A stretch of DNA of 64,000 nt from Winogradskyella vidalii (GTDB lineage Bacteria; Bacteroidota; Bacteroidia; Flavobacteriales; Flavobacteriaceae), in contig NZ_JABFDG010000006.1 of NCBI RefSeq assembly GCF_013403955.1, positions 124,001-188,000 of the forward strand, given 5' to 3'. Position 1 is the first letter of the stretch; each line of letters starts with the position of its first letter. The notes below the pieces were generated by a model that saw nothing but the letters and a program-made list of their open reading frames with translations, did no database searches and was not told the DNA's origin. The position numbers and the translations under genes were made by a program. Shown in pieces: positions 6,055 through 48,017 of the stretch.

Positions 6055-7059
6055 TTAAAATGAATTTTTAAATTTTTCAATAATCTGAAGTGCCGCTTTT
6101 ACAGGAGAAATTTCAGAAGACACAATAGCGTTTTCTAATTGAGAAAGTTCACTTTTTATATGTTTAGAACCATAAAACATATGCTTAAGCTCTTCATTAA
6201 TGTTATTGTACATCCATTTGATTTGTTGGTGATTTCTATTTTTTACAAAATAGCCATTTTCATCAACTAAAGCTTTGTATTTTAAGACTTGCTCCCAAAC
6301 ATTAGAGATTCCGATGTTTTTTGTAGAGGAAGCAGTGCTTACCACAGGACTCCATCCGGATTCAGATAACGGAAATATATGTAAGGCATTTTGGTATTGC
6401 CGCTTAGCAATCTTACTCTGTGTAACATTGTCGCCATCTGCTTTATTAATAACGAGCATATCGGCCATTTCCATGATGCCTTTTTTAATGCCTTGTAATT
6501 CATCACCAGCACCAGACAACATTAAAAGTAAGAAGAAATCCGTCATGCCATGTACTGCGGTTTCGGATTGACCAACACCAACGGTTTCAATTAAAATAAC
6601 ATCATAGCCTGCAGCTTCACAAAGCAACATAGTTTCACCTGTTTTGTTGGCAACACCACCCAAGGTGTCTCCTGAAGACGATGGTCTAATATAGGCTTCA
6701 TCTATGTTTGCTAATTCTTCCATTCGTGTTTTGTCACCAAGAATACTACCTTTAGAACGCTGACTACTAGGGTCAATTGATAAAATAGCAACTTTATGAC
6801 CTTCTTTTACAAGGTATAAACCAAAGGCTTCAATAAATGTACTTTTACCAACACCAGGTACACCAGTAATACCAATACGAATAGAATTTCCAGAATTTGG
6901 TAATATGGCCTGAACAATTTCTTTTGCTAAGATTTTATCACTTTCCAAATTACTTTCAATAATGGTTATCGCTCGAGACAACATAACACGATCTTCCGCT
7001 AAAATCCCATCGATATAAGCTTTTGATGTTAACCTGTTTTTGGGTTTGTAATTTTTCAT
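6055..7059 (-). CDS. meaB: Methylmalonyl-CoA mutase-associated GTPase MeaB
   Basis: 334 residues, a G3E-family P-loop GTPase that gates cobalamin loading and protects methylmalonyl-CoA mutase from inactivation. Seen: Walker A GVPGVGKS at residues 66-73, the SIDPSSQRSKGSILGDKTRM switch region typical of ArgK/MeaB, the ETVGVGQSE motif that replaces DxxG, and NKADGDN as the guanine-specificity NKxD motif. It faces the mutAB operon tail to tail rather than being in it, with the thioesterase gene downstream. A perfect -7 box on the - strand lies at 7107-7114, about 45 bp before the start codon. Confidence 0.95.
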   Translation of the reverse strand: MKNYKPKNRLTSKAYIDGILAEDRVMLSRAITIIESNLESDKILAKEIVQAILPNSGNSIRIGITGVPGVGKSTFIEAFGLYLVKEGHKVAILSIDPSSQRSKGSILGDKTRMEELANIDEAYIRPSSSGDTLGGVANKTGETMLLCEAAGYDVILIETVGVGQSETAVHGMTDFFLLLMLSGAGDELQGIKKGIMEMADMLVINKADGDNVTQSKIAKRQYQNALHIFPLSESGWSPVVSTASSTKNIGISNVWEQVLKYKALVDENGYFVKNRNHQQIKWMYNNINEELKHMFYGSKHIKSELSQLENAIVSSEISPVKAALQIIEKFKNSF

Positions 7060-7387
7060 TTTTGTGATATTATGCTTCGTAAATTCCTTAAGATGGTCAC
7101 CTCAAACAAAGATACAGATAATGCAAAAAACAGCATAGTTTATATGACGCTTTTAAATGGTTTTTTCAACAGGGAATTAAATGGTAATACGCTAGTAAAA
7201 CAGTCGCCAAACACGAAGCTTTACACAACCTGATTCATGATAAAAATTATATCAAAATCCTAAACTCATAAAAATCTCGTCGATACAATTAAGGGTTTTG
7301 TATAGAGAAGATCAACAACTATATATTACAGTTTAATAACATAACATATCGTTTCATCTTTGAAGTGTTAATTAAAAACACGGTAAA
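7060..7387. other. Divergent intergenic region between meaB and the TolC operon
   Basis: 328 bp without a convincing gene. It must hold the promoters of both divergent units. On the - strand there is an exact TATCTTTG (7107-7114) for meaB; on the + strand CATCTTTG near 7348 is a 7-of-8 match for the TolC operon. No repeat, RNA gene or riboswitch was recognised. Confidence 0.5.
7107..7114 (-). promoter_or_regulatory. Candidate -7 promoter box for meaB
   Basis: On the - strand these bases read TATCTTTG, an exact match to the Bacteroidota -7 consensus TAnnTTTG, about 48 bp upstream of the meaB start codon. No TTG -33 box is found at 17-23 bp spacing, so support is partial. Confidence 0.4.
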
Positions 7388-8719
7388 ATGAAATCATACC
7401 TATACATCATAGTTCTACTTCTAGCAAAGCTTAGTTTTGCTCAGGAAGAGACAACGACTTCATCACAAAAAATATGGTCTTTAGAAGATTGTATAAACTA
7501 TGCCATAGAAAACAACATTACGGTTAAAGAGGCAACTTTAAATAAAGAACTTGCAGAAGTGGATTATAGCGCCACAAAATCATCTCGATTACCAAATTTA
7601 TTTGGGAGTGCATCGCAAAGTTTTTCTAGTGGGAATACTATTGATCCTATAACAAGTGACTATGTAACGGATCAAATCCACAGTACTAATGTGGGAATTA
7701 ATAGTTCTATGACTCTGTTTCAAGGTAACCAAATTAACAATCAAATTAAGCAAAGCAAATTGTTATTTGACCAAAGCATTTTACAAGAAGACGTTGAAAA
7801 AAACAATATCATTTTAAATATTTTAGAAATCTACTTACAAACTTTATACAGTAAGGAAAGCATAACGGTTGCTGAAAATAATTTTGAAGCTTCAGAAAAT
7901 GAAGTCGCTAGAGCAAAAGCGCGTTTAGATGCTGGTACTATAGCGTTAAGCGATTACACAGAAGCACAAAGTCAGGCTGCAACAAACCGATACAATATTA
8001 TCGCGGCTAAAAATGACTATCAACAAAACATTATTACACTTAAACAATTATTAGAATTAACACCTACCGATAATTTAGAAATTGAAACTATTTCTGAAAA
8101 CATGAATGTGGTAAATCTTGAATTAAACAAACTAGATATTTACAACAAGGCGCTGGGAATTTTACCAGAAGTAAAAGCGAGCGATCTTAATATTGAAGTA
8201 AATGAAAAAGCATTAGACATCGCTAAAGGAGCTTATTTACCAACCTTAACGTTATCTGGTAGTGTGGGTTCTGGTTATACAAGTATTAACGACAATACCT
8301 TTTCAGACCAGTTTGATATAAATTTTAATCAACGACTCGGTTTATCGTTAAACATTCCAATTTTTAATAGAAATCAAACCAAAGCAGCGGTTCAATCGGC
8401 ACAAATTAATATAGAAAAAGCCCAAATTCAGAAACAATCTACTGAAAAAGACCTCTACAAACGAGTAGAAACAGCATATCAAAATGCCGTATCTGCTCAA
8501 GAACAAGTTATAGCGGCAGAGGCCTCAATGGTTGCTGCAGAGCAATCTTATCAACTGGCACAAAAGACCTATGAATTAGGAGCGCTAAGCACAACTGATT
8601 TAGTAATTAGTCAAAATACATACACTAACACGCAACAAAATTATTTACAAGCAAAATACCTCAATGTGCTATACCACCAACTCTTACAATATTACCAAGG
8701 AAACGATATTAAACTTTAA
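7388..8719 (+). CDS. TolC family outer membrane efflux protein
   Basis: 443 residues with a clear signal peptide (about residues 1-18, ending LSFAQ). Two similar halves with long alpha-helical coiled segments and beta-strand stretches match the outer membrane efflux protein (OEP) family; the first half opens with WSLEDCINYAIENN and the second with KALDIAKGAYLPTLTLSGSV, the usual repeated motifs. It would form the trimeric outer-membrane channel for the downstream adaptor and ABC genes (65 bp downstream), giving a complete tripartite exporter. The order TolC, adaptor, ATPase, permease is common in Flavobacteriaceae. The exported substrate cannot be read from sequence. Confidence 0.92.
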   Translation: MKSYLYIIVLLLAKLSFAQEETTTSSQKIWSLEDCINYAIENNITVKEATLNKELAEVDYSATKSSRLPNLFGSASQSFSSGNTIDPITSDYVTDQIHSTNVGINSSMTLFQGNQINNQIKQSKLLFDQSILQEDVEKNNIILNILEIYLQTLYSKESITVAENNFEASENEVARAKARLDAGTIALSDYTEAQSQAATNRYNIIAAKNDYQQNIITLKQLLELTPTDNLEIETISENMNVVNLELNKLDIYNKALGILPEVKASDLNIEVNEKALDIAKGAYLPTLTLSGSVGSGYTSINDNTFSDQFDINFNQRLGLSLNIPIFNRNQTKAAVQSAQINIEKAQIQKQSTEKDLYKRVETAYQNAVSAQEQVIAAEASMVAAEQSYQLAQKTYELGALSTTDLVISQNTYTNTQQNYLQAKYLNVLYHQLLQYYQGNDIKL

Positions 8720-8783: not shown

Positions 8784-9989
8784 ATGAAAAATAAAAAGAA
8801 AATAATTATCGGTAGTTTGGTCGTAATCGGACTAGCCATTGTGGCCTTCAGCTTCTTAAGAGGCGATGATGCTATTATTATAGAACCAAAAACGGTAGCT
8901 GCTAAAAATGCCAATGTTACTACTATGGTTACAGCAACAGGAACCATTGAGCCTATTAATCAGGTTGATGTAGGAACGCAAGTTTCTGGTGTGGTAGAGA
9001 AAATATATGTAGACTATAACAGTGAGGTAAAAGCCGGACAACTTATCGCCGAGTTAGATAAAACAAACCTTAAAGCCTCGCTTACGCAAGCCCAAGCATC
9101 TTATGATAATGCCGTAAGCCAAAGAAATTACACGCAAACCATTTATGAGCGACAAAAATCATTGTACGATAATCAAGTCATTAGCAAATCAGATTTTGAC
9201 GATGCATCATACAATTACCAAACCGCTAAAGGCACCGTAACGCAACGTTTATCTGATTTACAATCTGCTAGAACTAATTTGGGTTATGCTAATATTTATT
9301 CACCTATAGATGGTGTTGTACTCTCTAGAGCTATAGAAGAGGGGCAAACCGTTGCGGCTAGTTATAGCACACCAACCTTATTTACGATTGCCCAAGATTT
9401 AAAACAAATGCAAGTAGAAGCAGATGTTGATGAAGCAGATATAGGGCAAGTTAAAGAAGGACAGCGTGTAGAATTCACCGTTGATGCTTATATCGGAGAA
9501 ACCTTTAATGGTGTCGTAACACAAGTACGATTAGACCCTACGGTTACTTCAAATGTAGTGACCTATACAGTTGTAATTAAAGCAGATAATGAAGATTTAA
9601 AACTAAAACCCGGACTAACAGCAACCATTTCAATTTTTACTTTAGAATTAAATGATGTCTTAACAGCTGAAGCCAAAGCTATCAATTTTAAACCTGAAGC
9701 TGAAACGCTAGCAACTTATAATGAGCATCATAATTTACAAGACGGAACAACAAGTACATCAGGAAATAGTAAAACACTTTGGGTCTTAGGAAAAGATAGA
9801 AGTATTACTGAAAAAACAGTGACTTTAGGTGCTAGTGATGGTGTAAATGTTCAAATTTTAAGTGGCATTTCTGAAGGTGATGAATTAGTGTACAGTTTAA
9901 AGGGCATTTCTAAAGCAGAAGCCGCAGGTCCTGGAGGATCTAACGAAAGTCCATTTATGCCACAACGACCAGGAGCTAAAAAAAAGTAA
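8784..9989 (+). CDS. MacA/HlyD-type periplasmic adaptor protein
   Basis: 401 residues. Residues about 5-25 form a membrane anchor or uncleaved signal. The biotinyl-lipoyl-like domain (TGTIEPINQVDVGTQVSGVV near residue 55) is followed by a helical hairpin (LTQAQASYDNAV to RLSDLQSARTNLG), the second lipoyl half (YANIYSPIDGVVLSRAIEEG) and beta-barrel domains, the standard order of membrane fusion proteins. It ends with a Gly/Pro/Lys-rich tail. The next gene, the ATPase, starts 6 bp after its stop. This is the adaptor joining the MacB-like transporter to TolC. Confidence 0.92.
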   Translation: MKNKKKIIIGSLVVIGLAIVAFSFLRGDDAIIIEPKTVAAKNANVTTMVTATGTIEPINQVDVGTQVSGVVEKIYVDYNSEVKAGQLIAELDKTNLKASLTQAQASYDNAVSQRNYTQTIYERQKSLYDNQVISKSDFDDASYNYQTAKGTVTQRLSDLQSARTNLGYANIYSPIDGVVLSRAIEEGQTVAASYSTPTLFTIAQDLKQMQVEADVDEADIGQVKEGQRVEFTVDAYIGETFNGVVTQVRLDPTVTSNVVTYTVVIKADNEDLKLKPGLTATISIFTLELNDVLTAEAKAINFKPEAETLATYNEHHNLQDGTTSTSGNSKTLWVLGKDRSITEKTVTLGASDGVNVQILSGISEGDELVYSLKGISKAEAAGPGGSNESPFMPQRPGAKKK

Positions 9990-9995
9990 GCAATC

Positions 9996-10739
9996 ATGAC
10001 TAAAGAAATAATTAGAATAGAAGACCTTAAGCGTGAGTTTACTATGGGAACGGAGACCGTTCACGCCTTACGTGGTATCTCTTTTAGCATTAATGAAGGA
10101 GAGTTTGTAACCATAATGGGATCTAGTGGATCAGGTAAAAGTACCATGTTAAATATTTTAGGATGTTTAGATCAACCAACCTCAGGATTATATGAGATTG
10201 ATGGCTTAAAAGTAAAAGATCTAAGCAGAAATGAATTAGCGACCATTAGAAATGAAAAAATTGGATTTATTTTTCAATCATATAATTTATTAGCCAGAAC
10301 ATCGGCAATTGAAAACGTAGAATTACCCTTATTATATAATAGCAAAGTGACTTCTGAAGAGCGAAGGGATCGAGCAGTCAAAGCCTTAGAGATGGTTGGA
10401 TTAGGCGAACGATTGCATCACACCCCTTCGCAACTTTCAGGGGGACAGCAACAGCGTGTTGCTATTGCAAGATCATTGGTAAATAATCCGGTTATGATAC
10501 TCGCTGATGAAGCTACTGGGAATTTAGATACTAGAACATCTTACGAAATTATGGCGTTGTTTCAAGAATTAAACAAACAAGGTATCACCATCACCTTCGT
10601 AACACACGAACCCGATATTGCTACGTTTAGCAACCGAACAATTGTATTAAAAGATGGTGAGATTATGCAAGATTACAAAAACCACAATGTGTTATCTGCA
10701 GCAGAACAACTGGCACAGTTACCTAAACAAGACGATTAA
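9996..10739 (+). CDS. ABC transporter ATP-binding protein (MacB/LolD type)
   Basis: 247 residues, a single nucleotide-binding domain. Walker A GSSGSGKS (residues 42-49), the ABC signature LSGGQQQR, Walker [10 protein letters not shown] with its catalytic Glu, and the H-loop FVTHEPD are all intact. In E. coli MacB the ATPase and permease are fused; here they are separate genes, as in many Bacteroidota. The tight 6-bp spacing to the adaptor gene supports co-translation. An imperfect inverted repeat (10742-10752 with 10787-10797, 10 of 11 paired) lies in the 89-bp gap before the permease and might modulate expression of the two genes. Confidence 0.94.
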
Positions 10740-10828
10740 TTATGAAATGCCAATCATAGACTCTAATATGAACCTATATGTAATTATGGCATTCCATATG
10801 ACCTTAAAAAAACAATAAATATAAACAG

Positions 10829-12049
10829 ATGAGACTATTTAATTTATTTAAAATTGCGACTAAAGCTATTGTTCTTAATAAAACGAGAACCTTACTTACC
10901 ATGCTAGGTATTATTATAGGTGTAGCCTCTGTAATTGCTATGCTAGCTATTGGCGAAGGCTCTAAAGAAAGCATAAGAACAACCATTTCAGCGATGGGAT
11001 CTAATATGATTACTATAAGACCGGGATCAGACGATAGAGGCCCGGCTAGAGGAAGTGGTGGTAATGTACAAACATTAACGCTAGATGATTATAATCAAAT
11101 TAAAGCGGAAGCGTCGTTATTGAGCTATATAACACCTGTTGTAAATGGAGGCGGACAAGTTATTAATGGCTCTAATAACTGGCCAAGTACAATTTATGGT
11201 GTTAATCCCGATTACTTAAATATCAAGGTTGTCGATTTACAAAGCGGAAGCATGTTTACCGATGTTGAAGTTCAATCGGCTTCTAAGGTGGCATTAATTG
11301 GTCAAACCGTAGTAGATAACGTGTTTCCAGATGGCCGAGACCCAGTAGGTCAAATGATTCGTTTCGATAATATTCCGTTTAAAGTGATTGGTGTTTTAGA
11401 AGAAAAAGGTGAAAATACATTTGGTCAAGATCAAGATGATGTTGTCATTGCGCCTTACACGACAGTTCAGAAACGTATTTTAGCAATTGATTATTTAAAT
11501 CAAGTTATGGCATCTGCAGTAAGTGAGAATGATGCACCAGAAGCTGTAATTCAAGTCACTGAAATTCTGCGAACGCAACACAAATTAATGGATAGTGAAG
11601 ACGATGATTTTACAGTGCGTTCTATGGAAGAGTTAATTTCAACATTTAGTTCAACTAGTGAGATGTTAACTATTCTATTGGTGGCAGTGGCGAGTATTTC
11701 ATTATTAATTGGTGGCATCGGAATTATGAATATTATGTATGTCTCGGTAAAAGAACGAACCAAGGAAATAGGATTACGTATGGCGGTTGGCGGAAAAGGT
11801 TCAGACATCTTAATGCAATTTTTGATTGAAGCTATTCTCATAAGTATCACAGGAGGACTTCTTGGTGTCATCTTAGGCCTTGGCGCAACGGTCTTTATAG
11901 AGAAATTCCTAAACTGGCCTACAAGTGTTGCGTTATATTCGATAGTGGTTTCCTTTGCCGTTTGTGCAGTCACGGGAATCTTTTTTGGATGGTATCCTGC
12001 ACGAAAAGCATCGGCTTTAGATCCTATTACAGCATTGCGTTACGAATAA
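10829..12049 (+). CDS. MacB-like ABC transporter permease (FtsX family)
   Basis: 406 residues. One membrane segment near residues 18-40 (TMLGIIIGVASVIAMLAIGE), a large periplasmic MacB_PCD domain of about 220 residues, then three C-terminal membrane segments (about 280-305, 330-355, 370-392) ending PARKASALDPITALRYE, the classic FtsX/MacB tail. This is the mechanotransmission permease that works with the separate ATPase just upstream, the MacA-like adaptor and TolC. Likely substrates are antibiotics, lipopeptides or envelope lipids; not determinable here. Confidence 0.94.
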   Translation: MRLFNLFKIATKAIVLNKTRTLLTMLGIIIGVASVIAMLAIGEGSKESIRTTISAMGSNMITIRPGSDDRGPARGSGGNVQTLTLDDYNQIKAEASLLSYITPVVNGGGQVINGSNNWPSTIYGVNPDYLNIKVVDLQSGSMFTDVEVQSASKVALIGQTVVDNVFPDGRDPVGQMIRFDNIPFKVIGVLEEKGENTFGQDQDDVVIAPYTTVQKRILAIDYLNQVMASAVSENDAPEAVIQVTEILRTQHKLMDSEDDDFTVRSMEELISTFSSTSEMLTILLVAVASISLLIGGIGIMNIMYVSVKERTKEIGLRMAVGGKGSDILMQFLIEAILISITGGLLGVILGLGATVFIEKFLNWPTSVALYSIVVSFAVCAVTGIFFGWYPARKASALDPITALRYE

Positions 12050-12079
12050 AAAAAAAGTTTAATTCTAATATTTTGTAAA

Positions 12080-13375
12080 ATGAAAACGCTTATTAATAAA
12101 CCGATGTTAAAAGCTGCATTTTTGGTATTCCTTTTGATTTCAATGGCATCATGCAATGACAAAAAAACGAATGCTAGTACGGTTGCAGTTACGGAACGTA
12201 ATTATACACAAATAGCTACAGGACAAGTTGTAGCCTATGGAGAAGATGGTGAGATTTTAAATGATTTAAAACCTGGGGATTCTCTCTACGGACAAGATGC
12301 TACGTATTTAAAAGGAAATGAAATGTCTTTTAAAAAAAATGAAGACGGAACAATTTCAGATTTAAATTCAGGATTAATGTGGCAAGAAGTGCCTACCACA
12401 GAAGGCTTTGATTGGCAAGGCGCAAAAGATTATGTCGAAAATTTAGAATTAGGAGGCTATGATGATTGGAGAATGCCAACCTTAAAAGAATTATTTTCTA
12501 TTAGCGATTTTAGCGAAGGTTGGCCGTACTTAGATACCGCTTATTTTTCGTTAGTTAATAATGAACATGTCGATAAGAGCGAACAATATTGGGCCGATAA
12601 TCCATACGTTGGTCATACTGAAGAAGGTAGATACACAGCTGCTTTTGGAGTCAATCATGCCACAGGTCATATTAAAGCCTATCCTGGCGAGGAGCCTGAA
12701 GATAGAGGAGACCGCAAAGGTCCACCTCCAGGAAATCAAAACCCACAAGGGCAACAGGGAGAACAAAAAGATGACAATCGACCACCACCGCCAGGAAATG
12801 GAGAGCGCCCAACGGGTAATCCGATGTTAAAACATGTACGAGCTGTTCGTGGTAATATTTACGGAACAAATGATTTTGTAGATAACGACGATCAAACCAT
12901 TACAGACAAAGCTACTGGTTTAATGTGGTCTAAAAACGATAGTCAACAAGGGTTCGATTGGAAAAATGCTTTAGTATATGCTGAAGAATCAGACTTAGCT
13001 GGTTATACCGATTGGCGTTTGCCTAATGTTAAGGAGTTGCAAGGTATTGTAGATTATGATTACGCACCTGGTGCAAAAGATTCCGATTTTAACAGCGCTG
13101 CAATACATCCTATTTTTAATATTTCTGAAATTAAGAATGAAAATGGTGATAAAGATTATCCCTATTTCTGGACGAGTACTTCGGCAAGATTTCAAAAAGG
13201 AAAACCATATTACTATGCTTGGTATGTCGCTTTTGGTAGAGCTGTTAATCCAATGGGATTAGATTTTCATGGCGCAGGTGCTGTGAGATTTGATACTAAA
13301 CATGAAAATGGCCCCGCAGGAGAAGGTGGAGAACGGTATTATAATTATGTACGTTTGGTTAGGAATGTAGAATAG
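12080..13375 (+). CDS. Lipoprotein with two DUF1566 (Lcl C-terminal-like) domains
   Basis: 431 residues with a signal peptide and lipobox (SMASC, Cys about residue 26). Two related DUF1566 domains are seen: one with LNSGLMWQEVPTTEGFDW and DWRMPTLKEL, one with KATGLMWSKNDSQQGFDW and DWRLPNVKEL. A hydrophilic linker of about 45 residues rich in Pro, Gly, Asn and Gln separates them. DUF1566 is found in surface and adhesion proteins such as Lcl of Legionella. The gene follows the MacB-like permease by 30 bp on the same strand and is probably the last gene of that operon, so the exporter and this surface lipoprotein may be linked. Exact function unknown. Confidence 0.8.
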   Translation: MKTLINKPMLKAAFLVFLLISMASCNDKKTNASTVAVTERNYTQIATGQVVAYGEDGEILNDLKPGDSLYGQDATYLKGNEMSFKKNEDGTISDLNSGLMWQEVPTTEGFDWQGAKDYVENLELGGYDDWRMPTLKELFSISDFSEGWPYLDTAYFSLVNNEHVDKSEQYWADNPYVGHTEEGRYTAAFGVNHATGHIKAYPGEEPEDRGDRKGPPPGNQNPQGQQGEQKDDNRPPPPGNGERPTGNPMLKHVRAVRGNIYGTNDFVDNDDQTITDKATGLMWSKNDSQQGFDWKNALVYAEESDLAGYTDWRLPNVKELQGIVDYDYAPGAKDSDFNSAAIHPIFNISEIKNENGDKDYPYFWTSTSARFQKGKPYYYAWYVAFGRAVNPMGLDFHGAGAVRFDTKHENGPAGEGGERYYNYVRLVRNVE

Positions 13376-13395
13376 ATTATTCTTTAATTGATAAA

Positions 13396-13662
13396 TTATG
13401 TAGCTGTCATTCCTGTATTTGGTTTGAAAAACTGATTAAAATTAGCCGTTTCATTAAAATCTAAAGCATAAGCAACATCAGCAACTGTTTTATCTGCTTG
13501 ATGTAAGCGTGTTTTGGCATATAATATTTTATAATCGATAATTACTTTTTGCACGCTTTTACCTGTTGCTTTTTTAACACATTCCGTGAGATAAATAGGG
13601 CTAATGTGCATTTTTTTAGCATAGTCGTTTACAGATAAAAAAATGGTGATTACTAGAGAACA
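13396..13662 (-). pseudogene. Remnant of an AraC-family regulator (DNA-binding domain only)
   Basis: Reading the - strand, the frame LSVNDYAKKMHISPIYLTEC continues into KKATGKSVQKVIIDYKIL and ADVAYALDFNETANFNQFFK, an unmistakable AraC two-helix-turn-helix domain. The frame is closed upstream by a stop at 13663-13665, before any ligand-binding domain, and the C-terminus ends early at GMTAT where family members run on with PTxFR. Only about 85 residues remain of a typical 290. No plausible start codon precedes the first helix; an internal ATG at 13611 would give just 71 residues. It is best read as a decaying fragment. Confidence 0.75.
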
Positions 13663-14246: not shown

Positions 14247-14306
14247 ATAGGAAAAGTAAAACCAAAAATAGATTTCCGGTGTCGCGGAAAATAAAATAAA
14301 ATTTTT

Positions 14307-41141: not shown

Positions 41142-41936
41142 ATGTCTAGACAAAAGGGGATCTTAAAACTCGTAGGTACTTTAAATGGCCAATGCTTTTA
41201 CAAGCTGAATGGGCAATACATTGTGCGCAAAGCTGTTGGGCCGTCTCGCGAGCGTATTGCTAACGATCCGGCTTATGCCAAGGTAAAAGGTAATAACCAA
41301 GAATTTGCAGCAGCATCACAATTATCTAAAGCTTTGAGGAAAGGTTTAGGTGACAAGGCTATACAGTTTAAACACCAGCATATGGCAAGCCGTTTAACCG
41401 GTTGTTGCCGTAAAATTATTCAAAAGGGGAGTGGTGCATTAGGAGAAAGGGAGGCCCATCTTTTTAATAATCCGGCAGCGCTTATAGGCTTTCAACTGAA
41501 TAAGGACTTAGCGTTTGAGCAGTTATACCAGGCAACCCCCAAAGTGACGTCTAATACACAGCGGACTTTAGTTACAATAAGGTGTTTAGAAAGCTCAGCA
41601 CACTTACATTATAGTGTTCCCAAAAAAGCGAGCCATTATCAACTGACGGTAGCTATAAGTTGTGTTTCTAAATTACAATGGCAGCCAAGTTTACAGGCTT
41701 ACACAGCAGCACATCCCGAACAACAAAGCCTTGGTGGCACGGTACAAAGTCTAGCATTAGCAATAGATGCCGCCGCTACTGATCTTGAGCTACAATGGCA
41801 AGCGCCCACTATAAATGGCATTTTAACCGACGTGGCTATAACGGTATGGTTAGGCATTGCTTATTTAAAACAGCAAGACCAAGGCTATGCTTGTTACGCC
41901 ATACCACAAGCTATGCAGTGTATCGCTGTTATTTAA
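41142..41936 (+). CDS. Uncharacterised 264-residue protein of a Bacteroidota-specific type
   Basis: No enzyme motif, signal peptide or membrane segment is visible. The N-terminus (GILKLVGTLNGQCFYKLNGQ then RKAVGPSRERIANDPAYAKV) resembles a lineage-specific group of proteins from Bacteroidota genomes whose role I do not know; the assignment is from pattern memory. Residues about 45-100 look helical and basic, the rest beta-rich with many Ala, Gln and Thr. Base composition by eye is richer in G+C than the neighbours, especially the Gabija-like genes that follow, hinting at separate origin. A pyrimidine-rich stretch (about 41050-41110) precedes it. It is the last gene before the left repeat of the island. 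Confidence 0.6.
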   Translation: MSRQKGILKLVGTLNGQCFYKLNGQYIVRKAVGPSRERIANDPAYAKVKGNNQEFAAASQLSKALRKGLGDKAIQFKHQHMASRLTGCCRKIIQKGSGALGEREAHLFNNPAALIGFQLNKDLAFEQLYQATPKVTSNTQRTLVTIRCLESSAHLHYSVPKKASHYQLTVAISCVSKLQWQPSLQAYTAAHPEQQSLGGTVQSLALAIDAAATDLELQWQAPTINGILTDVAITVWLGIAYLKQQDQGYACYAIPQAMQCIAVI

Positions 41937-42180
41937 GGTGGTGGCTCTAGATTATAATTTCTTTTATTAATGGCTTTGATTTGAGTATCAAACGGGCTTG
42001 ATACGTGAATGACTTGGGTTAGCCATGGCTATGGTATGGCTAAGACACGGGTTAGCTACGGGTGAACCTTATATTTGGTATGGTAGTGAATTGGGGTTGA
42101 GCGCTTGTTATTACTGGTGTGAGGTGTGTTTTGGTGAGGTAGTTCTATTTTACATAATAATGGTTGTTGTTGCTGTTAAG

Positions 42181-42220
42181 AAAAGCGCTATTAGGCTAAT
42201 TGTTGTGATTGTCCTATAAT
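42181..42220 (+). repeat. Left copy of the island-flanking direct repeat
   Basis: 40 bp, matching 47877-47916 in the same orientation with only two mismatches (38 of 40). Shared bases begin AAAAGCGCTATTA and end CTATAAT. The two copies enclose the Gabija-like genes and two passengers. Confidence 0.85.
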
Positions 42221-42350
42221 ATTCTGCGTAATGTAACTTGAGCTTTATTCACAAGGTTTCTATTTTAAGGAACACGCTTTTTACGAAGCGACGATAGGAG
42301 CGTAGTGGAATGTGAATTAAATGGTAATATTCTCATTAATAATCAAATCA

Positions 42351-42366
42351 TTACGGAATACCGTAA
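42351..42366. promoter_or_regulatory. Palindrome upstream of gajA
   Basis: TTACGG and CCGTAA separated by AATA, 22 bp upstream of the -7 box, covering the -33 region. It could be a regulator site; no regulator gene is adjacent. Confidence 0.3.
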
Positions 42367-42388: not shown

Positions 42389-42396
42389 TATCTTTG
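42389..42396 (+). promoter_or_regulatory. Candidate -7 box for the Gabija-like operon
   Basis: TATCTTTG, exact TAnnTTTG match about 97 bp before the gajA ATG. A TTG at 42375 is too close to act as -33. Confidence 0.45.
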
Positions 42397-42492: not shown

Positions 42493-44574
42493 ATGAAAAT
42501 CAAAAAGATTAAAATTGAAAATTATAGACTTTTAAAACAGTTTTCAATTGATTTAGAGGAAATAATGTCTTTAGTGATTGGAAAAAACAATACAGGTAAA
42601 ACCTCATTACTAACTGTAATTGATAATTTTCTGAATGGTCCTGATAAAAGCAAGTTTAAATTTGATGATTTTAATATTGATTTTAAAAATGAATTAAGAA
42701 CCTTAATTGAAGGAGATATTCCAAACCAAGAGAATTATAAATCAGTCGGTATTAAGCTTAAGCTTTTTATAGAATATAATGAAGATGACAACTTAGCTAA
42801 CCTTAGCAGAGTTATGATGGACTTAGACCCTGAAAACAAGTTTATTGTTTTAGGTTTTGAATATCATTTAACATACGATTCATTGGAGAGAATCAAACAA
42901 AAGTATACTGAATTTCAAGCTAAAGAAGTTGTAAAACTTGCTGAGGAAGTAAACTATAGACAGAAAGATATATTTTATTTTTTAAAAGTATATCAAGGGG
43001 AGTTCTTTAAATCTAGTCGAAAATCTATAGAATTCAATAGAGTAGATGAAATTGAAAATGAAGACAACTTCATTGATTTAGATGTTGAAAAAATATCAAC
43101 TAAAGATATTATAAGTTTTAAATTCATTAGTGCTAAAAGAAGTGTTACAAATAAGGAGAATGACAAAACTCTATCAGGTCAAACTTCAGAAATTTATAAT
43201 GCAACAGAAAAAACAGATGAGCAAAACGAAAAAATAGAGCAATTTAAAGACAAACTAATATCAACAGATTATACGCTATCAGAAATTTATGAAACTTTAT
43301 TCGAAGATGTTGTTGAAAAAGTTCGAAAATTTGGAGGTATAAAAAGTGATGATTCCACCATTAAAATAGAATCTTCTTTACAACATAGAGAATTATTATC
43401 AGGAAATACAACAGTTATGTACAAGCATAATGACACAACTTTACCTGAATATAATAATGGCTTGGGTTATATGAACTTGATTAGCATGATATTTCAAATT
43501 GAAATATTAAGACAAGAATTCAAAAAGAGTAAAGATGAAAGACCTGCCGATATAAATTTGTTATTTATTGAAGAGCCTGAAGCGCATACACATCCTCAAA
43601 TGCAGTATGTTTTTATTAAAAACATTAAATCTTTACTTGACCAAGGAATAGTTAGAGAAGATGGTGATAATAGAAAACTGCAAACAGTAATAACAACTCA
43701 TTCCTCACACATAGTTTCTGAAAGTAATTTTGATGATGTAAAGTATCTTAAAAAAGAAGATGAAAATAATGTAATTGCCAAAAACCTAATTGACCTTAAA
43801 AAAGAGTACGAAACTGATTCACCACAGTATCAATTTTTGAAACAGTATTTAACAATAAGCAGAGCTGAAATATTTTTCGCTGACAAAGCTATTTTAATTG
43901 AAGGAGATACAGAAAGAATTTTGATTCCTACATTAATGAAAAAACTAGATAAGGAGGAAGAAAGACGTTTTATAGCTTTGGCACAGAAAGACCCGAAACT
44001 TCCTTTATCTTCTCAAAATATATCTATAATTGAGGTTGGAGCATATTCACAAATTTTTGAGAAATTCATTGAATTCATAGGTGTTAAATCTTTAATAATA
44101 ACTGATTTAGATACAATTGGTGATGACACAAAAAAATGTAGAGTTGCTGTAGGAACTAACTACTCTAATGATGCGCTAAAACTATTTTTTAATAGTGCTA
44201 CTCTAAATCAGTTGAAAGGATTTACGATTGATGATAAAAAAATTTCCAAAAATGAAGAAACCTGGCAATCCGATAGCAACGGTAATCTTTGTGTTGTTTA
44301 TCAAACAGAAGAAAATGATATTACAGCGAGAAGCTTTGAAGATGCATTTATTCAAATTAATAGAGAATTTATTACACTTAAAAAAGATGATTTTAGAGGG
44401 TTAAAGAATAGAGATTTTTTTGATGTTGGAGCTAATGATTCTTATAAATTAGCAGAAGAATGTGTTAGAAAGAAAACACATTTTGCGTTAGATATTTTAT
44501 TCCATACAGACGAAGAATTTACTAATTGGGAAATGCCTCTATACATTAAAGAAGGATTATTATGGTTGAAGTAG
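42493..44574 (+). CDS. gajA: Gabija-like GajA: OLD-family ATPase with TOPRIM nuclease domain
   Basis: 693 residues. N-terminal ABC-type ATPase with Walker A GKNNTGKT (30-37) and Walker B IEEPEAH (359-365), then a C-terminal TOPRIM domain with EGDTE (Glu470-Glu474) and DLD (Asp538, Asp540), followed by SFEDAF near residue 620. This is a class 2 OLD nuclease, defined by a neighbouring UvrD-like helicase gene, the Gabija anti-phage arrangement. GajA of Bacillus cereus is about 580 residues, so this one is roughly 110 longer, mainly between the Walker motifs (an acidic-basic charged helical segment around 210-270). Catalytic motifs are complete, so it should be active. Confidence 0.85.
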   Translation: MKIKKIKIENYRLLKQFSIDLEEIMSLVIGKNNTGKTSLLTVIDNFLNGPDKSKFKFDDFNIDFKNELRTLIEGDIPNQENYKSVGIKLKLFIEYNEDDNLANLSRVMMDLDPENKFIVLGFEYHLTYDSLERIKQKYTEFQAKEVVKLAEEVNYRQKDIFYFLKVYQGEFFKSSRKSIEFNRVDEIENEDNFIDLDVEKISTKDIISFKFISAKRSVTNKENDKTLSGQTSEIYNATEKTDEQNEKIEQFKDKLISTDYTLSEIYETLFEDVVEKVRKFGGIKSDDSTIKIESSLQHRELLSGNTTVMYKHNDTTLPEYNNGLGYMNLISMIFQIEILRQEFKKSKDERPADINLLFIEEPEAHTHPQMQYVFIKNIKSLLDQGIVREDGDNRKLQTVITTHSSHIVSESNFDDVKYLKKEDENNVIAKNLIDLKKEYETDSPQYQFLKQYLTISRAEIFFADKAILIEGDTERILIPTLMKKLDKEEERRFIALAQKDPKLPLSSQNISIIEVGAYSQIFEKFIEFIGVKSLIITDLDTIGDDTKKCRVAVGTNYSNDALKLFFNSATLNQLKGFTIDDKKISKNEETWQSDSNGNLCVVYQTEENDITARSFEDAFIQINREFITLKKDDFRGLKNRDFFDVGANDSYKLAEECVRKKTHFALDILFHTDEEFTNWEMPLYIKEGLLWLK

Positions 44575-46457
44575 TAGAAGAAGAAGTGCTCGATGAATTT
44601 CAACAGATTATGAGCCATATTGGAAATGGCAATAACTTCTTATTGAGCGGTGGAGCTGGTAGTGGAAAAACATATACTTTAGTTCAAGTTATTAAAAAAT
44701 GCATTGAAGATTTTCCTACTTCAAAAGTTGCTTGTATGACATATACTAATGCAGCTGTGAAAGAAATTGAAGAAAGAGTAAATCATAAAAACTTAAATGT
44801 TACTACAATTCACGACTTCCTATGGGATAATATAAAGCATTTTCAAAAAGAACTAAAACAAAGTCTCATAGATTTAGCGAACAATGATTTAATTACTAGA
44901 ATTAAAATTGCAGATGTAGATACGGTTCCAAATGATTTTTTTGATGTATTGGAAAAAGAAATTCAATATAAAGAGTATTTACGCTTACAAGACGGCATAA
45001 TATCTCACGATGAATTATTGATATTGGCTAATCACTTATTTAAAACATACCCAAAACTAAATGACATACTAAAAGATAGATTTAAGTTCATTTTTGTAGA
45101 TGAATATCAAGATACTAGCAAATTAGTAATAGAGATTTTTTTAGAGCATTTTAAACTAAGTAATAAAAAAAATATCATTGGCTTTTTTGGAGATACAATG
45201 CAATGTATTTACGATAATACTGTTGGCAATTTAGATGCATATAAAGGCGCAGAAGATGACAAGGTTCGAGAAGTTAAAAAACAACAAAATAGAAGAAACC
45301 CAAAACTAGTTATTGATTTGGCTAATAGACTTAGAACAGATGATTTAGAACAAACTGAATCGGATGATAAAAATGCTCCAAATATGAATGAAGATGGCAC
45401 CTTAAAGGCTGGAGATATTCGATTTTTATACTCTGATATTGAGAATATTCAAACAGTAAAAGAACATCTTGGTTGGGATTTTAGTGATTCAAAAAACACA
45501 AAAGAACTTAATTTAACTCATAATCTAATTGCAGATAAAGCTGGAATTAGAAACTTAATGAATATCTATAATAGTGATGGTATATTAAAATATAAAAATC
45601 AAGTTCGCAAATACATTAAAGATAATGGAATTGATGAAGATTTCACGGCTATGACTTTTGGAGAAGTTTTAGATTTTTTAGTAGGAGTAAACCCTACAAA
45701 TAGTATGCGACGGTTTATTGATGATAATCCAGAATTATATGATAACGCCAGAAATCAAAATTGGGAAGTTTTCTCAAAGATATATGTAGATAAAGACCAA
45801 TTACTTGATGACAAGAAACAAAGTGAAGATGATGAAAATAAAAAAGGTTCAAAAAGGGATGCTTTAATTAGACATTTGTTTAAAATAGAAACCAATATTT
45901 TTCTCTATTCTAACAAACGTTATAATGAATTTCTAAGAGCTACAGATTATAGATTTAGCATTCGAAGAATAGAAGACAAAAGAGCCTTAAAAGCAAGTAT
46001 CGAATCATTAATTAATGTTGGAGAAAAAACTATTGAAGAAGTAATAAATGAAGCTAATGAAAATCGTGTTTGTTTAATTGATGATAAATTAGAAAGGTTT
46101 ATAATTGATAAGGAGTATTTGTTTAACAGAGTTAAGAATGTAAAATATAAGGAATTCCAAAAATTATTTATTTACTTAGAAGGTTTTACTCCGTTTTCAA
46201 CTCAACATAAAACCAAAGGAGCGGAATTTGATAATGTATTAGTGATTTTAGACAATGGAGGATGGAATAATTATAATTTTAAAAACCTCTTTTTAGTTGC
46301 AGGTTCTGAATCTGTACTAGAAAGAACTCAAAAACTATTCTATGTTTGTTGTACAAGGTCTAAAGAAAAATTAGCTATCTATTTCAATTCTCCAAGTGAT
46401 GCCGTAATTGCAAAGGCTAAAGAATGGTTTGGAGAAGATAATGTTATTCCAGTTTAG
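44562..46457 (+). CDS. gajB: Gabija-like GajB: UvrD/Rep-family superfamily 1 helicase
   Basis: 631 residues; the ATG overlaps the end of gajA by 13 bp, so the two are translationally linked. Helicase motifs: I GGAGSGKT (30-37), Ia YTNAAVKEI, II DEYQD (180-184), III FGDTMQCIY, V STQHKTKGAEFDNVLV and VI CCTRSKEK with Arg599. GajB of B. cereus is about 490 residues; here an extra 130 or so lie in a charged, Asp/Lys-rich region (about 390-470). In Gabija, GajB is thought to sense or process DNA and GajA to nick it, causing phage resistance. Identification rests on the gene pair and motifs. Confidence 0.85.
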   Translation: MVEVVEEEVLDEFQQIMSHIGNGNNFLLSGGAGSGKTYTLVQVIKKCIEDFPTSKVACMTYTNAAVKEIEERVNHKNLNVTTIHDFLWDNIKHFQKELKQSLIDLANNDLITRIKIADVDTVPNDFFDVLEKEIQYKEYLRLQDGIISHDELLILANHLFKTYPKLNDILKDRFKFIFVDEYQDTSKLVIEIFLEHFKLSNKKNIIGFFGDTMQCIYDNTVGNLDAYKGAEDDKVREVKKQQNRRNPKLVIDLANRLRTDDLEQTESDDKNAPNMNEDGTLKAGDIRFLYSDIENIQTVKEHLGWDFSDSKNTKELNLTHNLIADKAGIRNLMNIYNSDGILKYKNQVRKYIKDNGIDEDFTAMTFGEVLDFLVGVNPTNSMRRFIDDNPELYDNARNQNWEVFSKIYVDKDQLLDDKKQSEDDENKKGSKRDALIRHLFKIETNIFLYSNKRYNEFLRATDYRFSIRRIEDKRALKASIESLINVGEKTIEEVINEANENRVCLIDDKLERFIIDKEYLFNRVKNVKYKEFQKLFIYLEGFTPFSTQHKTKGAEFDNVLVILDNGGWNNYNFKNLFLVAGSESVLERTQKLFYVCCTRSKEKLAIYFNSPSDAVIAKAKEWFGEDNVIPV

Positions 46458-46561: not shown

Positions 46562-46595
46562 TAGCTCGACATAACTACTAGTCATATAAAACACT
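46562..46595 (+). repeat. Partial copy of the right-edge repeat after gajB
   Basis: 34 bp beginning TAGCTCGACATAACTACTA; 29 of 34 bases match 47804-47837 in the same orientation. Lies in the 209-bp gap between gajB and the lipoprotein gene, which holds nothing else recognisable apart from a TGCGTAATG also found after the left repeat (42225). Confidence 0.7.
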
Positions 46596-46666
46596 GACTT
46601 TTTGTTATTTGACGCAACCCTTTCGGAATTCCTGCATCTATAAGGTATCACTTAAAAACACATATT

Positions 46667-47122
46667 ATGAAATTAGGACCATTACACTTATTGCTATTTT
46701 TAGGGTTTATATTACTTTCGGGTTGTAGTAATGACGATGATTGTACGGATACGGTTATAAACACCACAAGTCTTGAGATTGCATACGGCTGTACGGATAC
46801 CAAATATCAAATGGATATAGAATTATCTGAAGATTTTATGATTATTAAAAACCAACTTGATTTTGCAGAATTTGTATCAGGTAGTTGCCAACCAACGATT
46901 GATTTTTCTATTTACGATTTGATTATTGGAAAAAAAGGACTTGCGAATGGGAATACTTCTATTGATTATGAGTTAATTAAAAATTGTGAGACTGAAAACG
47001 AAAACCTAATCGTAACTTTCAATCAAAATGAAACAGCTGAAGCCCCTAATTTGACATATCACGCTCTGATACCGAAACTTGAAGATGATCAAGAATTGCA
47101 TGTTGAAATCATAATTAATTAA
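46667..47122 (+). CDS. Small lipoprotein, island passenger
   Basis: 151 residues with a strong lipoprotein signal (lipobox LLSGC, Cys about 20) followed by SNDDDCTDT. The mature part has four more cysteines and no recognised domain. It resembles short lipoproteins of unknown function common in Flavobacteriaceae. It is separated from gajB by a repeat-containing gap and therefore probably not part of the Gabija transcript. It could be an independent cassette gene. Function unknown. Confidence 0.65.
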   Translation: MKLGPLHLLLFLGFILLSGCSNDDDCTDTVINTTSLEIAYGCTDTKYQMDIELSEDFMIIKNQLDFAEFVSGSCQPTIDFSIYDLIIGKKGLANGNTSIDYELIKNCETENENLIVTFNQNETAEAPNLTYHALIPKLEDDQELHVEIIIN

Positions 47123-47166: not shown

Positions 47167-47739
47167 TTGAATTTAATAACAACAATTACGAATATACTAC
47201 TTGAAGAAGGCGTTACTACAACTTATTCTGAAGACGATAATTGTTTAATATTTAGTGGCGTTTATAAGAATGAAACTCGTATTTTCTCAAAGGATATCGT
47301 TTTCAAAGACCATTTGATTGTATGGTTTCAAAAAGATGATTATGGAAATGCACTTTTGAGAAGTTTTAAAGGGAATTTAAATATCAACTATATTCCAGAA
47401 TCAAATCACTCTGATTATGGCGATGGAATTGAATGCCTATATTTAAAAATAATTGACCACTCAATTATCTTTGTGTACAGAGAAAAACATTCAGATTACA
47501 TTTGTTCAATTATGAATGGAATAGTTAAAAGAGAACGTCTTTATTTAGGAACTAAAAAAATTATTAAAGACAATATTCTTTACTTTAAAATTCCTGATTA
47601 TGCTGAAAAAAATATCGGGTTTATAAAAAAACTAAAATTACCTGAACTGGAATATGATAAGGATTTATCAGAAATAGAATTGAACAAACTTAATATTCAT
47701 TTAGAATCCAATTATTTTTTATATAACAGATTCAAATAG
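47167..47739 (+). CDS. Unrecognised protein with TTG start, island passenger
   Basis: 190 residues if translation begins at TTG 47167; an in-frame stop lies just upstream (47161-47163) and no ATG occurs near the N-terminus, so TTG is the best start. No signal peptide, membrane segment or known motif is visible; the sequence is mixed alpha/beta with many Ile, Asp and Tyr. Its TAG stop is embedded in the first repeat unit of the right edge (TAGCTTGACATAA), so gene and repeat abut exactly, a cassette-like feature. AT-rich like the Gabija genes. Function unknown. Confidence 0.6.
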   Translation: MNLITTITNILLEEGVTTTYSEDDNCLIFSGVYKNETRIFSKDIVFKDHLIVWFQKDDYGNALLRSFKGNLNINYIPESNHSDYGDGIECLYLKIIDHSIIFVYREKHSDYICSIMNGIVKRERLYLGTKKIIKDNILYFKIPDYAEKNIGFIKKLKLPELEYDKDLSEIELNKLNIHLESNYFLYNRFK

Positions 47740-47740
47740 C

Positions 47741-47786
47741 TTGACATAAATTATGTCAAATTTCACACAAAAACATTATTACGCTA
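47741..47786 (+). repeat. Right-edge repeat unit 1 with perfect palindrome
   Basis: TTGACATAA and TTATGTCAA (47741-47749, 47751-47759) form a perfect 9-bp palindrome around one base. The following 37 bp (47750-47786) match unit 2 (47858-47894) at 31 of 37 positions. It appears to be a copy that has lost the inner loop of unit 2. Confidence 0.8.
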
Positions 47787-47795
47787 CAAAATGAT

Positions 47796-47902
47796 ACAAC
47801 AATTAGCTTGACATAATTACTAACGATATAAAACACTAGCGTGTCGTTATATCTGCAATTATGTCAAATATCGCCCAAAAGCGCTATTACGCTAATTGTT
47901 GT
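47796..47902 (+). repeat. Right-edge repeat unit 2: long nested hairpin
   Basis: Outer arms ACAACAATTAGC (47796-47807) and GCTAATTGTTGT (47891-47902) are perfect 12-bp inverted repeats; inside, TTGACATAATT (47808-47818) pairs with AATTATGTCAA (47857-47867), and ATATAA with TTATAT further in. The whole can fold as one long cruciform or single-strand hairpin with an asymmetric bulge on the right side. Confidence 0.75.
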
Positions 47903-47916
47903 GATTGTACTATAAT
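47877..47916 (+). repeat. Right copy of the island-flanking direct repeat
   Basis: Matches 42181-42220 at 38 of 40 bases. It includes the right arm of the hairpin above. Downstream to the MFS gene (47917-48017) nothing else was seen. Confidence 0.85.
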
Positions 47917-48017
47917 TTATATTATGTAAAATAGACTTTTTGTAAAACCACAATCCCATCACATAATATATCAAACCATGTATACTTAAGACGACGACAC
48001 TAGAAATAAAAATACTT

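Follow-up and report, generated by a model that had tools for sequence, protein, structure and literature searches.

A long-form Gabija gene pair in a movable-looking cassette beside a putative dif site of Winogradskyella vidalii

The gene pair considered here, gajA-gajB, encodes a Gabija anti-phage system and lies on a stretch of 64,000 nucleotides from the flavobacterium Winogradskyella vidalii (contig NZ_JABFDG010000006.1, positions 124,001 to 188,000, forward strand), referred to below as the window. As proteins, GajA and GajB are the ordinary long form of a known system, and the finding at the protein level is an ordinary one. What is new is the genomic context: the pair lies within an apparently small and movable cassette at the putative dif, and relatives carry other anti-phage systems in what look like similar cassettes. 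The cassette consists of a left-end site, a head, the cargo genes and a tail that adjoins the putative dif (Table 1). Both open reading frames (ORFs) and their overlap of 13 bp agree exactly with an earlier sequence-only reading of the locus.

Table 1. Features of the gajA-gajB cassette and its left neighbour, in window coordinates (aa, amino acids)
Feature	Position	Strand	Description	Basis
Chromosomal left neighbour	41142..41936	+	264 aa, no family match; outside the cassette; left of dif in five relatives	
Copy of 40-nt repeat	42181..42220	+	95% identical to 47877-47916, which adjoins dif	
Left-end attL-like site, degenerate	42209..42236	+	Second XerC arm TTGTCCTATAA, then divergent right half	
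Shortened head copy	42209..42365	+	From the model including the window; 42245-42343 at E 8.3e-6 with the model excluding it	
gajA	42493..44574	+	693 aa; OLD-type ABC ATPase 1-408, TOPRIM nuclease 461-540 and beyond	ORF, PADLOC, Pfam, fold
gajB	44562..46457	+	631 aa; UvrD-like superfamily 1A (SF1A) helicase, long motif IV-V (2B-like) region	ORF, PADLOC, Pfam, fold
Decayed tail copy 3' of gajB	46562..46608	+	79% identical to 47804-47850; perhaps an older cassette border	
Cassette gene	46667..47122	+	151 aa; unmatched in Pfam and PADLOC; N-terminus resembles a lipoprotein by eye	
Cassette gene	47167..47739	+	190 aa from a TTG start; unmatched in Pfam and PADLOC	
Tail, imperfect palindrome adjoining dif	47796..47902	+	Much stronger predicted fold than in shuffles (47796-47945, z -6.2)	
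Putative dif, right cassette end	47905..47932	+	TTGTACTATAA-TTTATA-TTATGTAAAAT (XerC arm, centre, XerD arm)	

The putative dif site and the borders of the cassette

The right end of the cassette is formed by a site that, from its sequence, looks like the chromosomal dif, at which chromosomes would be resolved after replication, and that is presumably the working dif of this organism. When the best matches to it are collected from 21 relatives, all of them within 3 mismatches, 24 of the 28 positions are invariant over the resulting 22 sites, including all 11 of the XerD arm. A wider query covering the dif region finds a match in 23 of 25 genomes of the genus (G001 and G015 give none). Outside the genus, the 28-mer of the window recurs unchanged in Aquimarina (L004), and a dif-like 28-mer two bases off the genus consensus lies 233 bp from gajA in Edaphocola (L059). 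The position of the site on the chromosome was followed in two near-complete relatives by sampling 40 stretches of 20 kb per genome. In both, the sampled G+C skew changes sign near dif, with the cumulative maximum at 2.146 Mb (site at 1.976 Mb) and 2.943 Mb (site at 3.096 Mb), and, counted from the minimum of the cumulative skew, the distance to dif is 0.51 and 0.53 of the genome.

The gajAB block differs from its surroundings in composition, with a G+C content of 28.3% against 35.6% and 36.3% in the flanks. In a second genome of the genus, G011, the pair is flanked by genes related to dsbA and yihY of the window, and its two proteins are 87.7% and 89.6% identical to those of the window. At the DNA level, gajAB of the two genomes is 85.7% identical, a value that the flanking genes do not reach (dsbA 79.1%, yihY 75.2%, and the next gene 76.9%). 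Since the pair is closer to its counterpart in G011 than the flanking genes are to theirs, it looks acquired rather than inherited together with them.

Dif-like sites sharing the XerC arm are found at both ends of the cassette, the left one being degenerate in the window and in G011. The 40-nt repeat that flanks the pair is confined to this locus: a 91-base query run against the whole genome at an E value of 0.01 returned, besides itself, only the copy starting at 42181 and a partial copy at 47749-47786. In relatives, the further XerC arms on the XerC side of dif carry a different right half, TGTACTTGCGTTATGTA, and together the two halves make a hybrid site, TTGTNCTATAATGTACTTGCGTTATGTA. This hybrid site occurs with 0-2 mismatches in G003 (two sites), G005 (two), G010, G017, G639, which belongs to another genus, and at one place in Aquimarina L004, where a second site has 4 mismatches.

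An inverted copy of the XerD arm (TTATGTAAAATAGA) is also present in the window, at 42144-42171 on the minus strand, shortly before the left end of the cassette. CTXphi uses inverted pairs of dif-like sites.

The hybrid site is followed by a conserved head of about 160 nt, and an XerC arm within 1 mismatch stands at the start of 11 of the 13 heads aligned. The first model of the head was made from eight copies, the window excluded. It matches the window (Table 1), locus L003, where the head ends 160 nt before gajA (E 4.7e-26), locus L007, both before gajA and at 14285, genome G786, and locus L117, where it precedes a GajA of another clade. Run at E 0.1 against a letter-shuffled version of the same 3.1 Mb, an enlarged model gave no match, nor did it give any at E 10 when 1.6 Mb of sequence from two relatives was sampled; a weak match in G007 (L252, E 0.031) was left uncounted. 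The head contains a hairpin whose covariation score of 0.181 compares with 0.059 in shuffles (none of 500 as high) and with at most 0.098 when the structure is slid. The copy in the window is without the right arm of this hairpin. The left end in the window, folded by itself, gives no signal (z +0.76).

A tail precedes each site, and tails within an array are nearly identical. Local alignments of tails over 121 nt, for which the maximum score is 242, give 207 for the last two of G011, 202 for the two of G005, and 192 for G003 against G005. The left site and dif have the same orientation in the window, G003, G005, G010, G011, G017, G639, and L004, and in these eight genomes dif is the next site to the right that combines a tail with an XerC arm. 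Two heads stand before dif in G003, G005, and Aquimarina. Pfam finds no recombinase domain among the four cassette proteins of the window, two of which have no match at all, or among the scanned proteins of the other dif-located cassettes. In the window, Rfam at its gathering score returned 0 matches and the tRNA scan 0 genes.

Distribution and cargo of the cassettes

The presence of these cassettes varies between relatives. Among 18 dif loci of the genus that are well covered, that is, with at least 7.9 kb on the XerC side, head-marked cassettes are found at six (window, G003, G005, G010, G011, and G017). Three loci with 250-1118 bp left of dif (G016, G012, G008) were omitted from this count, and G009 and G023 of the genus also lie outside it. 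Beyond the genus, the cassettes are found in G639, as the one other genus, and in Aquimarina. In G002 and G019, the gene for the conserved left neighbour of 264 residues lies 573 and 810 bases from dif, dif being present and no head. A search for the hybrid site with two mismatches allowed found it in 2 of 395 genomes of the order, a pattern for which the copies in the window and in G011 are too diverged.

The cargo was surveyed in seven cassettes that had not been chosen through GajA, most of their genes being scanned with Pfam and PADLOC. One cassette of G003 (G003b) carries AbiLi-AbiLii (PADLOC 258 and 67 bits), and one of G005 (G005a) carries McrB-McrC with a C5 methylase, McrC being recognized by Pfam and the methylase by both Pfam and PADLOC. 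The cassette of G639 holds a Pycsar cyclase together with an E2/SEC-C protein and a PycTM protein. These are recognized systems. Three other cassettes show defence-type domains only: an ABC/AAA protein with a partner of 1096 residues in G005b, an NB-ARC/TPR protein in G010, and a KAP NTPase in G017. The Gabija cassettes themselves (window, G011, where NERD and HipA genes follow, L003, L004, L007, and L117) were found through GajA and OLD searches and are thus Gabija by choice, so that they provide no evidence for an enrichment of the cargo. A search of the PDB with two cassette proteins, of 874 residues from G010 and 450 residues from L007, gave 0 matches.

In Dokdonia L007, gajAB is followed at 12791-13545 by a pair of genes (147 and 103 residues) resembling, by eye, a HEPN/MNT toxin-antitoxin system. 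The second head of this locus, at 14285, is accompanied by what appears by eye to be an AAA-type ATPase.

The Gabija proteins and their relatives

The assignment of the pair to Gabija, with GajA as a class 2 OLD protein, had been made from the sequence alone and is supported by profiles, neighbourhood, and predicted fold. The best PADLOC model for GajA is PDLC00079 (942 bits, residues 1-693 on model positions 1-700 of 702), and that for GajB is PDLC00135 (776 bits, residues 8-630 on positions 5-601 of 603). Both proteins are thus matched nearly end to end, meaning that a curated Gabija model of the same size already exists, and from these models the proteins have no notable difference; the models carry no information on dif or cassettes. 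In Pfam, GajA shows PF13175 (AAA_15, the OLD ABC-ATPase, 226 bits) and PF20469 (OLD-like_TOPRIM, 56.6 bits), and GajB shows the UvrD helicase domain PF00580 (81.8 bits).

The relatives considered here are the best 80 of 120 stretches confirmed in a genome scan. A GajB-like helicase lies directly 3' of gajA in all 80, so that the loss of the neighbouring helicase, which would have spoken against Gabija, is not seen, and the two genes overlap in 79 of them. The exception is L057, with a gajA ORF of only 435 residues and a gap of 33 nt before the helicase. The catalytic motifs had been described as intact, and they are. An alignment of GajA from the window and 76 of 78 full-length relatives (L044 and L045 omitted) shows G35, K36, T37, S38, E360, E361, H403, E470, D538, D540, E616, and K661 to be invariant in 77 of 77 rows. 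For GajB, aligned with 72 of 76 relatives (L044, L045, L057, and L078 omitted), the Walker A motif, DEYQD, GD..Q, NRR, HKTKG, and R599 are kept in 72-73 of 73 rows.

Among the closest known systems is Gabija of Bacillus cereus VD045 (PDB 8SM3, 8X5I, 8JQB), with which the pair shares domain order, catalytic residues, and operon order. Single-chain AlphaFold2 models were used for the comparison of folds. The model of GajA has a mean predicted local distance difference test score of 82.3, with low values at 216-240, 298-306, and 316-324, and that of GajB a score of 87.1. The best whole-length matches of the GajA model are GajA chains (8x5i_D with Z 19.6, root-mean-square deviation (rmsd) 5.5, and 444 residues aligned; 8sm3_A with Z 18.9 and 435 aligned), followed by the OLD proteins of retron Eco8 (Z 17.6) and Thermus (Z 17.3); SMC and Rad50 heads reach similar scores over the ATPase part only. 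The GajB model matches UvrD/PcrA (3lfu, Z 19.8, rmsd 9.2) and GajB (8sm3_B, Z 17.6, rmsd 7.8). In profile searches of the PDB, the GajB profile finds B. cereus GajB at E 1e-11. The GajA profile matches Thermus OLD, Eco8 OLD, and class 2 TOPRIM fragments, and B. cereus GajA is not found even at E 10.

The phylogeny of GajA, proposed earlier as a check, gives a divided answer. The tree comprises the query, 19 of the 76 relatives, 86 other OLD proteins of at least 480 residues, and a partial B. cereus GajA; 8 duplicates or loci already in the family were omitted, and some proteins cut at a locus end were kept. The query falls in a clade of 34 rows (SH-aLRT 100), all sampled members of which have a linked helicase, whereas B. 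cereus GajA belongs to a separate clade of six rows (97), the five other rows of which are also helicase-linked. The helicase-linked label needs 12 changes on the tree, helicase-linked and solo proteins being intermixed, and the backbone is weak, from which it follows that class 2 may not be one clade. The division of OLD proteins into class 1 and class 2 by neighbourhood may accordingly not be phylogenetic. The genome to which the window belongs encodes two further OLD-type TOPRIM proteins (G000 C52:2647-2850 and C6:5157-5372).

Both proteins had also been described as enlarged. They are indeed longer than those of B. cereus, but not unusual: GajA ORFs of more than 640 residues in 78 of the 80 relatives span 669-752 residues (median 698), and GajB ORFs of more than 600 residues in 76 of the 80 span 611-710 (median 643), so the length is the norm for this branch. 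Lengths of GajA segments were compared in an alignment of 107 proteins, with B. cereus GajA residues 6-560 as the reference. The charged insert placed at about 210-270 was rejected, as segment 209-285 has 77 residues in the query and 73 in B. cereus, with medians of 78.5 in solo and 81.5 in helicase-linked OLD proteins, and contains eight residues (214, 216, 220, 227, 228, 259, 266, 270) that are invariant in 77 of 77 rows. The excess lies mostly at 96-208 (113 against 71 residues), where the model predicts helices at 128-151 and 160-171, then at 37-95 (59 against 44) and in smaller places. The charge ascribed to 210-270 is real, with 33% Asp, Glu, and Lys against 29% in the whole protein, and the most charged window of 61 residues starts at 233 (39%).

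The interval between motifs IV and V is the place of domain 2B in SF1A helicases. In GajB, the insert proposed at 390-470 does fall inside a true excess, since motifs IV and V are 304 residues apart against 199 counted from a printed alignment of B. cereus GajB, and 404-434 is charged (52% Asp, Glu, and Lys, with a low-confidence loop at 419-428). The region is mostly helical in the model and is present in the aligned relatives.

The proposal of a Bacteroidota subtype does not stand, because the long form occurs in several phyla. By record title, its hosts include Flavobacteriaceae and other Bacteroidota, Chlorobaculum, Desulfosarcina, Vibrio, Pseudomonas, Halomonas, Paenibacillus, Clostridium, and metagenome-assembled genomes of other phyla.

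A conserved third gene in the long-form branch was sought and rejected, the two largest clusters of neighbours each covering only 13 of 81 loci (window included). These clusters, identified by scanning one to three members each, are restriction-modification genes and helix-turn-helix (HTH) controllers. An Eco57I-type restriction-modification protein (994-1025 residues) and a methylase (535-554 residues) precede gajA-gajB in seven loci (L011, L038, L040, L042, L048, L050, and L051, the methylase being split in the last), and an HTH gene lies farther upstream in six of these seven, L051 having none listed. The same HTH family is found immediately before gajA in L025, L036, L037, and L043-L045. 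The restriction-modification module seems nested between the HTH controller and Gabija. On the 3' side of gajB, L025, L037, L038, L040, L042, L043, and L044 share genes for a DUF3408 protein and one like ParA, most of them with a relaxase as well, as judged from domains read in L040; the long-form branch appears to be carried on mobilizable elements of Bacteroidota as well.

Mobility of the cassettes, rival explanations, and significance

The best reading of the conserved dif-like site, the architecture of the sites, the shared heads and tails, the presence or absence of cassettes in relatives, and the varied defence cargo, all of which are read from sequence, is that the cassettes are moved by the host XerCD recombinases and would represent a new variant of the elements that exploit Xer. 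The long-form Gabija of the window was probably brought to dif as the cargo of a cassette without an integrase of its own. The cassette, as a putative circular intermediate, would bring a single site composed of an XerC arm and a divergent right half, and host XerC/XerD (the joining done by XerC, perhaps by XerD) would recombine this site with dif through the XerC arm common to both. On the left, the junction would then consist of an XerC arm and the cassette head, and the right junction of the cassette tail, an XerC arm, and the chromosomal XerD arm, that is, a rebuilt dif. With dif rebuilt, further cassettes could be added, and the resulting arrays would read tail-head-cargo-tail-head-cargo-tail-dif. 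The cargo of the window would be active against phages as in B. cereus (PMC10568477, PMC10781630, PMC12407980); by analogy, GajA and GajB would form one complex that senses abnormal DNA ends or the loss of nucleotides during infection and cuts DNA.

A wider reading would make this an integron-like system of Flavobacteriaceae-type bacteria, lacking an integron integrase, in which head/tail cassettes are serially captured at the main dif by XerCD and dif is rebuilt each time. The cargo would be weighted to anti-phage systems, and the resulting defence array at the terminus would be exchanged between genera. This generalization is put forward tentatively and is somewhat less likely to hold than not.

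Several observations weigh against the best reading given above. In some genomes (for example, G017 C48, G022, and G000 C22), other places also give weaker, partial matches to the dif region. Random positions reach the observed skew contrast in 159 and 258 cases of 5000, so that placement at the terminus is by itself modest evidence, and dnaA, found 0.4 Mb from dif in both relatives and not opposite it, is no marker of the skew origin. A close dif match flanks only two of the 80 GajAB relatives (L004 and L059; 50 of the 80 loci span at least 18 kb), and L059 shows no hybrid site. The left site of the window has 12 mismatches to the hybrid site in an ungapped comparison, its right half being seemingly one base short, and that of G011 has 6; given this degeneracy, excision may be dead in the window and the copy may be fixed. 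In the head hairpin, five of the eight pairs never vary and only two change on both sides, and two of five structure measures are not above shuffles (445 and 263 of 500). The seventh cassette of the cargo survey, G003a, encodes a secreted surface protein by its domains. Searches with the site and head patterns gave 0 matches in viral contigs, and one head searched against plasmids and phages gave none.

Heads without a close dif add to these points, being found in L003 and L007 (best match with 8 mismatches) and in L298 (none at up to 4 mismatches in 19 kb). In Pseudozobellia L003, a gene for 416 residues (6424-7677) stops 3 nt short of the head that opens the gajAB cassette, and the plasmid relatives of this gene, 46.6% identical over 92%, are annotated as site-specific integrases. 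In L298 (G786), head and hybrid site stand directly before a Tn3-family transposase (9594-12851, E 2.4e-67 to Tn4430), a possible other carrier of the head. Judging from the integrase-type gene and the transposase, heads may also travel on other elements.

These cases would suit an alternative in which the head is a promoter or leader shared by defence genes, or the end of integrase-driven elements, and the block reached a hotspot near dif by homologous recombination, with no role for Xer. The heads upstream of gajA in L003 and L007, the integrase-type gene of L003, and a Bacteroidetes-type TAnnTTTG at 42389 all fit such an origin. It is nevertheless unlikely, as it has to account for the XerC arm that opens 11 of 13 aligned heads and for arrays in which a tail and an XerC arm precede heads and dif alike, dif being the next such site rightward in eight genomes; nor does a shared leader explain the duplicated tails.

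Alternatively, a small single-stranded DNA prophage (inovirus or microvirus) could have inserted at dif, the locus being a remnant that retains nothing but the defence cargo. Published accounts describe the use of dif by microviruses of Bacteroidetes (PMC3091885), and by filamentous and tailless prophages of Vibrio that carry defence systems (PMC11630473). The palindromic tail and the head hairpin would also suit the folding of single-stranded DNA. Pfam and PADLOC scans of cassette proteins, however, revealed no phage structural or replication gene (PHROGs were not run), and searches of viral contigs and phage records yielded neither head nor sites, which makes a prophage remnant improbable.

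The weakest explanation, the earlier view of a Bacteroidota-specific Gabija subtype in which charged inserts alter assembly or trigger recognition, can appeal to the greater length of GajA and GajB than in B. cereus, to GajB 404-434 with its loop, and to the charged GajA stretch from 233, but is very hard to maintain given that the GajA insert is no insert, that the long form is found in several phyla, and that PADLOC already models proteins of this length.

Cassettes moved by XerCD would have their closest parallels in the integrative mobile elements exploiting Xer (IMEX), such as CTXphi, TLCphi, VGJphi, GGI, and EludIMEX-1, which use the host Xer and integrate beside dif (PMC5357621), the sites of TLCphi and GGI keeping the XerC arm with a divergent XerD side. 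The cassettes described here would share the use of host Xer, the kept XerC arm with its divergent partner, and the position beside dif. They differ in having few genes as cargo and no recognized phage or type IV secretion system genes, in sharing head and tail, in stacking in direct orientation, and in their Flavobacteriaceae-type hosts.

The pdif/dif modules of Acinetobacter are likewise small adaptive genes bounded by Xer sites and arranged in arrays (PMC6449649, PMC12907356). Their flanking sites, XerC/D and XerD/C, are in opposite orientation, and the modules are largely found on plasmids or at a great distance from the main dif (PMC6449649), with resistance and other adaptive genes as cargo, in contrast to the direct-orientation sites at the main dif and the several anti-phage cargoes seen here. 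Vibrio prophages integrated at dif (PMC11630473) make dif a hotspot for importing defence genes in a similar manner; here no prophage is recognized, and the cassettes consist of cargo, head, and tail. Integron cassette arrays, which have attC sites and an IntI integrase, were compared with these cassettes by eye, and the sites seen here match dif arms. Among the matches listed for literature on dif together with Gabija, defence islands, Flavobacteria or Bacteroidetes, and integrative elements, no such cassettes are described, as judged by titles and the first part of abstracts.

How small defence systems such as Gabija, AbiL, and Pycsar move without an evident vehicle is a standing question, and a cassette with ends formed by the site at which the chromosome resolves its dimers would offer them a concrete and testable vehicle. 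The head and the hybrid site provide a sequence handle for finding more defence genes. In addition, dif becomes a place to look for unknown defence systems, because the NB-ARC/TPR protein, the KAP NTPase, and the protein of 1096 residues beside an ABC ATPase are found in these cassettes and have no assigned system.

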